Shown here: piece after piece, positions 32,753-37,517 of the stretch
Layout: every line of letters begins with the position of its first letter
Numbering within the stretch: position 1 is the stretch's first letter
NCBI GenBank assembly: GCA_000996085.1
Contig: LBYG01000004.1
Location: 1-38,764, forward strand
Source: Parcubacteria group bacterium GW2011_GWB1_40_14
GTDB taxonomy: Bacteria; Patescibacteriota; Minisyncoccia; Terrybacterales; GWB1-40-14
DNA length: 38,764 bases
Reading direction: 5' to 3'
The notes under the pieces: generated by a model
Seen by the model: the letters and a program-made list of their open reading frames with translations, nothing else
Databases searched by the model: none
Told to the model about the DNA's origin: nothing
Made by a program: the position numbers and the translations under genes

Positions 32753-32781
32753 GACCGGTTGGTTAAACCAACCGGTCTCAA
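32753..32781. terminator. Bidirectional intrinsic terminator
   Basis: GACCGGTTGGTT (32753-32764) and AACCAACCGGTC (32766-32777) form a perfect stem, flanked by A/T-rich tracts on both sides. It serves the Wzy-like gene and the convergent 151-aa gene. Confidence 0.85.
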
Positions 32782-32782
32782 T

Positions 32783-33238
32783 TTATTTTATTAGAACATA
32801 AACAATTGTTCCGTCTTGAAGAGTCCATCCTCCCTGAAGTAGGTCAAACGTAGCACCACACGCCACGAGCCTATTTCTAAGTTTTTGCTCTGCCGAAGGC
32901 AGAACGCCATCGTTAATTACTTCTTTGATAATTTCAGTATCTAGTCTTATCAGAAGACGCAGGAAGTATTCCAGAGCAGCAACTTCATTTTGGGGCATTT
33001 CAACGGTAATCGTCCGTCTAAGATAACGCTCTTTATTGTACGTGTGTATGCGCCAGCCGTTAAATTCTTTCGATTCGGTTTTAACTATCCGGGCACCTAC
33101 GCGTTCCAGGGCCCCGCGAAATCGTTTACCCGCACTTTCAAGAAGTTTATTAATAGTGCGTAGCTCTTCTTTTCCACTAAAAAGATCAATAAATTCATAT
33201 GTTCCAGCCATTTCGTCAAAGGTAAGTACTATTTGCAT
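32783..33238 (-). CDS. Protein of unknown function, 151 aa
   Basis: The product is soluble, mixed alpha/beta and without Cys clusters. Visible segments are MQIVLTFDEMAGTYEFIDLF, a helical stretch (ELRTINKLLESAGKRF), a basic strand pair (WRIHTYNKERYLRRTITVEM), a helix (EVAALEYFLRLLIRLD), and a C-terminal half with LRNRLVACGATFDLL and a closing strand (GTIVYVLIK). I recognise no family. Expression signals are excellent: AGGAGG 6 nt before the ATG and an almost perfect promoter at 33285-33312. It lies directly downstream of the ~340-nt RNA gene on the same strand, separated from it by that RNA's terminator. Confidence 0.75.
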   Translation of the reverse strand: MQIVLTFDEMAGTYEFIDLFSGKEELRTINKLLESAGKRFRGALERVGARIVKTESKEFNGWRIHTYNKERYLRRTITVEMPQNEVAALEYFLRLLIRLDTEIIKEVINDGVLPSAEQKLRNRLVACGATFDLLQGGWTLQDGTIVYVLIK

Positions 33239-33284: not shown

Positions 33285-33312
33285 ATTATATAATTTTTAT
33301 TTATTTTGTCAA
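33285..33312 (-). promoter_or_regulatory. Perfect consensus promoter of the 151-aa gene
   Basis: On the minus strand TTGACA (33312-33307), 16-nt spacer, TATAAT (33290-33285). It starts 3 bp after the T-run of the upstream RNA gene terminator. Confidence 0.8.
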
Positions 33313-33315
33313 ATT

Positions 33316-33656
33316 AAAAAATAAAACCCCAACATATGTCGAGGTCTTAGGGGTGTCCGCTGTTTTGGCGGGCATACGGCATGAGACTTCACGCCTATTG
33401 AAGAAAGAACTTGTTAAATGGCTTTTCCCTGGTTTCATCCTGACGATGCCTCGTCGGGACCCCGGGCAGGACCTCCGTGATACGGAGTTTAGCCTCGGTT
33501 CGGGAGCAGTGTTTCGCGGTTGCCTGAGCATCCGCACTCTGCTGCTGGCGCACTATTGCGCCTCCCGTTCCTAAGAACCTGCCAGTGGATTGTCGAGCGC
33601 TTGACGCAACCACTGGATTAGCTGGGCCGTCCAACGGACGGAACACCAGCCTTAAT
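33316..33656 (-). ncRNA. Large structured noncoding RNA, about 340 nt, unassigned
   Basis: The RNA runs from a near-consensus promoter (33663-33691) to a hairpin plus T-run (33315-33344). No credible ORF is on the strand, and base composition is far richer in G and C than the neighbours. Minus-strand hairpins in order: GCTGG...CCGTCC-GTT-GGACGG-C-CCAGC, CCAGTGG/CCACTGG, GTTC-TTAG-GAAC, GGCGCA-ATAG-TGCGCC, AGCAG/CTGCT, CTCCGT-ATC-ACGGAG, GACGA-GGCA-TCGTC and CCGC/GCGG near the 3' end. I searched by eye for the RNase P core (GAGGAAAGTCC, ACAGAA), the tmRNA tRNA-like ends, the SRP tetraloop region and group I core elements, and found none. A highly divergent housekeeping RNA remains possible. 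Confidence 0.65.
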
Positions 33657-33662
33657 AGGTAC

Positions 33663-33691
33663 AGTATAGCATATAAAATATATCATGTCAA
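33663..33691 (-). promoter_or_regulatory. Near-consensus promoter of the ~340-nt RNA
   Basis: On the minus strand TTGACA (33691-33686), exactly 17 nt, TATACT (33668-33663). These are the same hexamers and spacing as the promoter of the other RNA gene at 5690-5718. Confidence 0.8.
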
Positions 33692-35919: not shown

Positions 35920-37198
35920 ATTTTCCTTGGGACAGGCTTTACCTCTAGCCCTGCGCATACAAGCGCGTTTGAGTAAGTTAGAAAACGTAGAAAGAGTTGA
36001 AATTGCAGGCTCATTACGGAGACGGAAAGAAACGATAGGAGATTGTGATATTTTAGCGATTTCGGCAAAGCCCGAAGCAATAATGGAATATTTTGTCGGT
36101 ATGAACGAGGTTGTGCATGTTTACGGCAAAGGCAAAACCAAAACAATGGTGCGTTTGAGTAATGGGATCGATGTTGACTTAAGAGTTGTGCCGCACAAGT
36201 CTTTCGGCGCGGCCTTGAACTATTTTACAGGCAATAAAGATCACAATGTTAAATTGCGACAGATAGCGATAAAAAAGGGATTGAAATTAAGCGAATACGG
36301 TATTTTTTCCGGAAAGAAAGGAGATAAATATGTTGCCGGAAAAAATGAAGAAGAAGTATATAAAAAATTGGGATTGGTTTATATTGAGCCGGAATTGCGT
36401 GAGAATACCGGAGAAATAGAAGCCGCGCGTTCAGGAAAATTACCCGATTTGATAGGTTATGACGATTTGCTTGGGGATCTACAGGTTCAATCGGATTGGA
36501 CTGACGGACAAAATTCAATTGAAGACTTAGCAAAAGCGGCCATTAAACTCGGAAGAAAATATATCGCAATAACAGATCACACAAAGCGTCTTGCCATGAC
36601 GCACGGACTCGACGAAAAAAGGATCTTAAAACAGATGGTTGAAATAGATAAACTAAATAAAAAATTTTCTGGTTCGACTTCGCTCACCACAAGTGGCTTC
36701 AAAATATTAAAAGGAACAGAATGCGATATTCTAAAAGACGGCTCTTTGGATTTACCCGATGAGATTTTATCTAAATTAGATTTTGTCGGCGTTTCTATCC
36801 ATTCATATTTCAATATGCCGCGCGAGGAAATGACCAAGCGCATTGTCCGTGCTATTTCAAATCCGCATGTAGATATTTTTTTCCACCCCACGGGACGGCT
36901 TATCAATAAACGCGATCCCTACGAGATTGATATGGAAGAGGTCATTGGGGTTGCCAAGCGTACCGGAACAATACTTGAAATAAACGCACATCCCGAAAGA
37001 TTAGATCTTAAAGATGAATATATACGAAAGGCAAATATTGCAGGCATAAAATTCAGTATCAATTCAGACGCACATTCGATAAACGATCTGAACCTTTTGC
37101 ATTACGGTATTGCCCAGGCAAGACGAGGTTGGACGGAAAAGAAAAGCGTAATTAATACTTATCCTATTGAACGAATGTTAAGACTTCTGAAACATTAA
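35888..37198 (+). CDS. polX: Family X DNA polymerase, palm and PHP domain part
   Basis: The 436-aa frame begins at GTG 35888 and overlaps the N-terminal part by 32 bp. It has the palm (GGRFSLGQALPLALRI, the catalytic GSLRRRKETIGDCDILAI, third Asp in GIDVDLRVVP, FGAALNYFTGNKDHNVKLR). It then has the C-terminal PHP domain usually giving 3'-5' exonuclease (ITDHTKRLAMTHGL, GTECDILKDG, VSIHSYFN, FFHPTGRLINKRDPY, INSDAHSINDL). The first PHP motif reads GDLQVQSDWTDG, where the two metal-binding His of many homologues (HxH) are Gln, so exonuclease activity is doubtful. Initiation at the overlapping GTG could make a two-chain protein; pseudogene is the alternative. The last 60 bp are duplicated downstream. 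Confidence 0.82.
   Translation: MKGKSAKHGGRFSLGQALPLALRIQARLSKLENVERVEIAGSLRRRKETIGDCDILAISAKPEAIMEYFVGMNEVVHVYGKGKTKTMVRLSNGIDVDLRVVPHKSFGAALNYFTGNKDHNVKLRQIAIKKGLKLSEYGIFSGKKGDKYVAGKNEEEVYKKLGLVYIEPELRENTGEIEAARSGKLPDLIGYDDLLGDLQVQSDWTDGQNSIEDLAKAAIKLGRKYIAITDHTKRLAMTHGLDEKRILKQMVEIDKLNKKFSGSTSLTTSGFKILKGTECDILKDGSLDLPDEILSKLDFVGVSIHSYFNMPREEMTKRIVRAISNPHVDIFFHPTGRLINKRDPYEIDMEEVIGVAKRTGTILEINAHPERLDLKDEYIRKANIAGIKFSINSDAHSINDLNLLHYGIAQARRGWTEKKSVINTYPIERMLRLLKH
37125..37198 (+). repeat. Direct repeat copy 1: 3' tail of polX
   Basis: This is the gene's present C-terminal coding end (WTEKKSVINTYPIERMLRLL). A close copy lies at 37421-37491. Its left edge ACGAGGTTGGAC (37123-37134) is also inversely repeated at 37209-37220 as GTCCAACCTCGT, a perfect 12-bp inverted pair enclosing this tail. 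Confidence 0.85.
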
Positions 37199-37420
37199 TT
37201 CGCTGATAGTCCAACCTCGTTAGAGGGGGTCGGGGAGAAGTATTTCTCCCCGTATCGGAAACCAGTGAGTCCGCCAGTTGGCGTACGAGCGCAAGAAACC
37301 GAGGGTTTCTTGGGGTCGAGCTGCGGAAAGTCCCGCTGAGCGGGACGAGCAGCGAGACGGGTTGAGTGATGCGCTTAGGTGCCACGAAACCCCGGGTACC
37401 TTTTAAAATAGTGAGCGACA
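37199..37420. mobile_element. Palindrome-rich 222-bp insert between the two polX tails
   Basis: It has no credible ORF and is much more GC-rich than the flanks. It contains three perfect hairpins: GGGGAGAA/TTCTCCCC (37232-37251), CAAGAAACC/GGTTTCTTG (37292-37312), and GTCCCGC/GCGGGAC (37330-37346) nested in CTGC/GCAG. Flanking direct repeats of about 70 bp suggest that it entered by recombination that duplicated the gene end, or by an element that carries a replacement tail. There is no transposase and no recognisable insertion-sequence end. The mobile nature is inference. Confidence 0.4.
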
Positions 37421-37491
37421 GAGGGTGGACGGAAAAGAAAAGCGTAATTAATACTTATCCTGTTGAACGGATGTTAAAATTCTTAAAATAG
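37421..37491 (+). repeat. Direct repeat copy 2: displaced polX tail
   Basis: It repeats 37125-37198 with about seven substitutions. In the matching frame it encodes WTEKKSVINTYPVERMLKFL followed by a stop. The changes are synonymous or conservative (Ile/Val, Arg/Lys, Leu/Phe), so both copies derive from functional coding sequence and not from a single recent duplication of identical DNA. Confidence 0.8.
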
Positions 37492-37517
37492 GGCGAAAAC
37501 ATTTTATGATAAAAATA

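Follow-up and report, generated by a model that had tools for sequence, protein, structure and literature searches.

The window, that is, the whole 38,764-nt stretch of DNA analysed here (the 38.8-kb contig C4 of a Parcubacteria genome of 0.94 Mb in 38 contigs), carries on its minus strand, from about 33656 to 33316, a segment that very probably is an RNA gene, judging by its sequence and that of its homologues. The RNA is absent from Rfam and is a new RNA family. With homologues in three other genomes (G001 of the same genus, and G257 and G115 of another order) and compensatory base-pair changes among them, the family is very probably one of structured RNAs. The explanation we favour, and consider probable, is a stand-alone, trans-acting large structured non-coding RNA, the founder of a sporadic family. 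A preliminary description of this DNA, which gave no strand, had proposed either a novel large non-coding RNA or a very divergent essential RNA; the former is supported by the lack of an Rfam match, the homologues and the strong covariation.

The RNA gene and its flanks

The elements of the locus, all on the minus strand, are as follows.

33663..33691, minus: sigma-70-type promoter, TTGACA-17-TATACT (11/12), read from the sequence
33316..33656, minus: the RNA, about 341 nt, from folding z, GC and homologues; both ends predicted
33404..33500, minus: conserved core, about 97 nt, a three-way junction, from covariance models R1-R3 and the covariation count
33395..33646, minus: 83-aa GTG open frame within the RNA, from the ORF listing, judged incidental
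33322..33349, minus: intrinsic terminator, 12 pairs then TTTTTT, read from the sequence
33285..33312, minus: promoter of the 151-aa gene, TTGACA-16-TATAAT (12/12), read from the sequence
32783..33238, minus: 151-aa protein gene, a neighbour outside the RNA unit, no Pfam or PHROG match

The strand was assigned from the promoter, the terminator and the homologues, because folding alone is insufficient: the plus strand folds well too (z -4.0). The putative 5' end was set about 7 nt past the -10 box and the putative 3' end at the T-run of the terminator. The near-consensus promoter (33691..33663) and the terminator (stem 33349..33322 followed by TTTTTT) are both present as first described, and all four homologues (window, G001, G257 and G115) have their own near-consensus promoter upstream of the RNA. 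The gene is single copy within the genome. Against dinucleotide shuffles the window RNA has a folding z of -5.4 (348 nt) or -4.5 (341 nt), and the four homologues score -4.5 (window), -6.7, -5.6 and -5.5. Its GC content is 0.548-0.556 versus 0.402 genome-wide, a level reached by only 0.2% of 341-nt windows. The raised GC noted earlier (about 55% versus 40% for the genome) thus holds, as do the at least seven hairpins, the predicted fold having more than seven.

The segment had also been described as having no ORF, which is not literally so: a GTG frame of 83 aa runs in the RNA sense from 33646 to 33395 (minus). It spans most of the RNA and its phase runs for 47 codons without a stop in G001, as would suit the mRNA of a small protein, but the same phase meets stops in G257 and G115, the phase of the longest frame varies among the homologues, and no single frame can be read through the core of every one of the four. 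The 83-aa frame belongs to no protein family and has no matches, and substitutions in the stems are paired. Because it lacks both a family and a frame shared by the homologues, we judge it incidental, and a small-protein mRNA is the least probable of the readings weighed here, close to negligible.

The 151-aa gene lies directly downstream on the same strand, an arrangement that would suit a leader or cis-regulator and that had led to the suggestion of a functional link. However, the terminator closes the RNA, and the gene has the strong promoter of its own that was claimed for it (12/12). For the 151-aa protein, neither Pfam nor PHROG gave a match and NCBIfam gave one below threshold only; the protein also has no match in G001, where the RNA occupies the corresponding position. 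The proposed link fails because the gene is missing beside the G001 copy, and cis-regulation of this neighbour is very improbable. Past the 151-aa gene, an inverted repeat of 11 perfect pairs, flanked on either side by T-rich runs (32753-32777), looks like a terminator common to the converging ligase and 151-aa genes. In G001, the RNA and the PHP gene are separated by a 95-aa frame with no confident family (L024:2907-3194) that has no equivalent at this place in the window, so the intergenic site varies within the genus.

Homologues and a conserved junction

Homologues were recovered by profile and covariance searches. The BLASTN comparison proposed in the preliminary description found no homologue in 93 relatives, its sole match beyond self (L002) being rejected as AT-rich low-complexity sequence past a terminator; the homologues came later, from nhmmer and covariance models. 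In neighbourhood loci, nhmmer detected the RNA of G001 (L024:3440-3743, E 1e-4) at the corresponding site, between an O-antigen-ligase gene and a PHP gene, in identical orientation and with a TTGACA-17-TAATAT promoter and a terminator. R1, a covariance model built from the window core alone, recovers this homologue at E 1e-8 and, across 384 genomes of the class, adds G257, in which promoter, core and terminator are all readable. A three-sequence model, R2, brings in G115 (E 1.8e-10), and G115 and G257 match each other by nhmmer, independently of structure, at E 1e-9. Their RNAs, of about 840 nt (G115) and about 400 nt (G257), lie between a glycosyltransferase-like and an ftsQ-like gene, names given from reading the translations.

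Only four credible members emerged from R2 over the 384 class genomes, and R3 over 380 genomes of the phylum gave no further one. Several core-model matches were set aside as chance: L057 within a gyrB-like frame, L060 and L062 inside frames, and L179-L182 in open frames of 196-558 codons; L061, a weak 21-bit match, was not accepted as a member. Pattern scans of genome contigs and viral contigs yielded L084 alone as a scoring member, with a core identical to that of G257, and the Bacteroidota look-alikes L085, L096 and L109 from these scans scored weakly and were set aside.

The core has the same layout in all four RNAs: a closing helix with two arms, one a hairpin and the other a longer arm of two stems. 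In the window, the closing helix is GGCU/AGCC, the hairpin CUCCG/CGGAG, and the longer arm has the stem UCCUG/CAGGG around GUCC.GACGA/UCGUC.GGAU; in G001 the closing helix is GGUC/GACC. Two unpaired stretches are conserved, namely GGCUAAA, around the first strand of the junction, and AAAAGCCAUUUAA, following the last one; G001 deviates from both. An unpaired AUUUAACAAGUUCUUU tail is also part of the conserved core. In the four-sequence alignment, 95.4% of structure cells hold standard pairs, compared with 33-50% when the partners are slid. Two-sided change is seen in 14 of 22 pairs (18 cells), and none of 500 shuffles reaches either the pairing or the change level; with only four sequences, aligned by fitting them to the structure, these pair counts lean towards it, but the margin is large. 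Around this core the helical periphery ranges from 340 to 840 nt.

The neighbours differ between the two clades (ligase and PHP genes in one, glycosyltransferase and ftsQ in the other) and are chromosomal envelope and PHP genes, with no phage, prophage or tRNA-island context. In G003 the ligase and PHP genes are nearly adjacent and the site is without the RNA; the majority of the genomes related to G257 and G115 have a gene directly at the corresponding site, again with no RNA. These empty sites, together with the sporadic occurrence (4 of 384 class genomes) at two unrelated places, are what would be expected of a guide or accessory RNA of a mobile element, or its remnant, either of HEARO or omega-RNA type or of the ornate type found in phages. 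However, the gene is single copy, no adjacent nuclease or transposase gene was found, and no Rfam HEARO, ROOL or GOLLD match was obtained. Searches of plasmids gave no match, those of phages one chance-level match, and no viral-contig pattern match scored as a member. We regard a mobile-element origin as rather improbable.

Comparison with known RNAs

The Rfam scan asked for at the outset found no match to the window RNA at gathering scores and no convincing family even at E<=10, where the two matches are poor (23.7 of 55 and 15.3 of 40 bits of the required score); the homologues are likewise without an Rfam match. No paper on this RNA was found in the open-licence literature. Within the segment, neither the RNase P RNA models (RF00010 and others, covariance models at E<=10) nor those for tmRNA (RF00023 and permuted forms, by covariance model or ARAGORN) gave a match, no Rfam SRP model matched at E<=10, and no SRP domain motif was seen by eye. 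The absence of these three signatures, first judged by eye, is thereby confirmed. The sole tRNA that ARAGORN finds in the window is a tRNA-Arg 6 kb from the RNA gene.

Of the essential RNAs that the preliminary description wished to see accounted for, rnpB (G000:C7:29972-30407, 113 bits) and ssrA (G000:C22:13218-13603, 134 bits) are encoded elsewhere in the genome, and SRP RNA was not located in the scans made. The small SRP RNA model RF00169 is silent in the genome and five relatives (G000-G005), and neither a comparison of 60 of its GC-rich intergenic pieces with all of Rfam nor a motif scan gave a convincing SRP RNA; these results would leave room for a strongly diverged SRP RNA, or another essential RNA of the lineage, at this locus. 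But RF00169 also misses the B. subtilis control, so that its silence proves little, and the segment resembles no SRP RNA by model or motif. An essential RNA, moreover, would be expected in every genome, whereas the core is credible in only 4 of 384. With RNase P RNA and tmRNA placed elsewhere, a very divergent essential RNA is disfavoured, and we consider it improbable. The SRP RNA in the lineage of G000-G005 may have diverged or belong to a different type. Above gathering scores, the 60 intergenic pieces contained rRNAs, tRNAs and one LOOT RNA (RF03000, 74 bits; G000:C3:7538-7657 minus, L278:94-213).

In anatomy, the closest kind is the large ornate bacterial RNAs. In GOLLD the 3' region is universally conserved and the 5' region less so, and many examples exceed 800 nt; the genes for both GOLLD and ROOL occur in phages and prophages, in many cases close to tRNA islands (PMC12286853). 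Like GOLLD, ROOL and OLE, the window RNA is stand-alone, large and heavily folded, and its conserved core with a variable periphery recalls the conserved region and variable remainder of GOLLD. It differs from all three in having no Rfam match, its smallest member being 341 nt, and from GOLLD and ROOL in that its loci have no phage, prophage or tRNA-island setting. Since sequence family and genomic setting differ, we do not file it as a member of the ornate RNAs. For GOLLD, ROOL, OLE, raiA and HEARO alike, no Rfam covariance model matched where the family exists in Rfam.

The raiA motif RNA, for which we know of no established biochemical role, is likewise a large and intricate bacterial RNA; the new RNA differs in size and in having no Rfam match. 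A structure has been reported for raiA, which is 205 nt long, and HEARO RNA, at 343 nt, is nearly equal in length to the window RNA (PMC12286853). HEARO, however, is tied to an HNH endonuclease, whereas the new RNA has neither an adjacent nuclease gene nor an Rfam match. RNase P RNA and tmRNA are similar in size range, GC richness, stand-alone organisation and multi-helix structure; they differ in being encoded elsewhere in this genome and matching nothing in the segment. The large type of bacterial SRP RNA, of about 270 nt, is also stand-alone and structured, unlike which the new RNA is sporadic and without an SRP-model match or SRP domain motif.

Mode of action and possible wider relationships

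The strong promoter would lead to constitutive production of the RNA, and the folded molecule would act in trans, since the gene carries transcription signals of its own and lies beside different genes in the two clades. It would scaffold a protein, as part of a ribonucleoprotein, or self-assemble, and the unpaired GGCUAAA and AAAAGCCAUUUAA junction strands are predicted to be its binding or active site. We place a scaffold mechanism in trans at about an even chance. A trans-acting regulatory sRNA that pairs with mRNAs through these strands would also have its own promoter and terminator, and conserved unpaired U- and A-rich strands lie beside the junction. However, an sRNA of this kind would be exceptionally long at 340-840 nt, and the molecule is mostly helix, with core helices kept through compensatory change. 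A core preserved within a periphery of anywhere between 340 and 840 nt favours scaffolding or self-assembly over an antisense regulator, which we consider unlikely. Among the main rivals, the base-pairing regulator nevertheless ranks first, ahead of a mobile-element RNA and then a divergent SRP RNA.

The rapid sequence change and the rarity would also suit an RNA that is accessory or under weak constraint. Genomes of about 0.5-1.5 Mb offer scant space for dispensable large RNAs, and the small genome, the strong promoter and the compensatory core together suggest that an RNA of 340-840 nt is probably useful. That RNA size can shift more than two-fold among relatives with one junction kept helps to locate the function, and the core models R1-R3 provide a means of testing for a class of large, fast-remodelled RNA belonging to this lineage.

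Strongly folded intergenic stretches of about 400 to about 1000 nt also occupy the glycosyltransferase-ftsQ site in G177 (L141), G201 (L136) and G241 (L133), with promoters of 10-12/12 and folding z of -7.8, -5.8 and -9.7, respectively. Rfam gives nothing above chance for them, and they are not alignable with the RNAs of G115 and G257; no model or nhmmer search joins them to the four-member family, and R3 with filters off gave nothing below E 1 over these three or the RNA at L029. It is conceivable, at a tentative level, that the four RNAs and these three stretches make up one hypervariable RNA class of the lineage, with a small junction core and a shell rebuilt from genus to genus, serving as a ribonucleoprotein scaffold or an RNA-only assembly. 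A tail pattern chosen after viewing G177, CCATTTN{0,4}AAGTTCTTT, gave 30 matches in 286 genomes, nearly all of them within frames, compared with about 19 when the pattern was reversed as a control, and was discounted.

Two further observations concern sequence near the PHP genes. Downstream of the PHP gene in G023, L029:3806-3554 (minus) holds a promoter-to-terminator RNA candidate of about 230 nt, with no Rfam or core-model match. In the window, a GC-rich insert of about 250 nt lies past the PolX/PHP gene (37150-37492); the last approximately 46 bases of that gene (AATTAATACTTATCC...) recur in diverged form beyond the insert, at 37447-37492, and the arrangement suggests that an insertion duplicated the 3' end of the gene.
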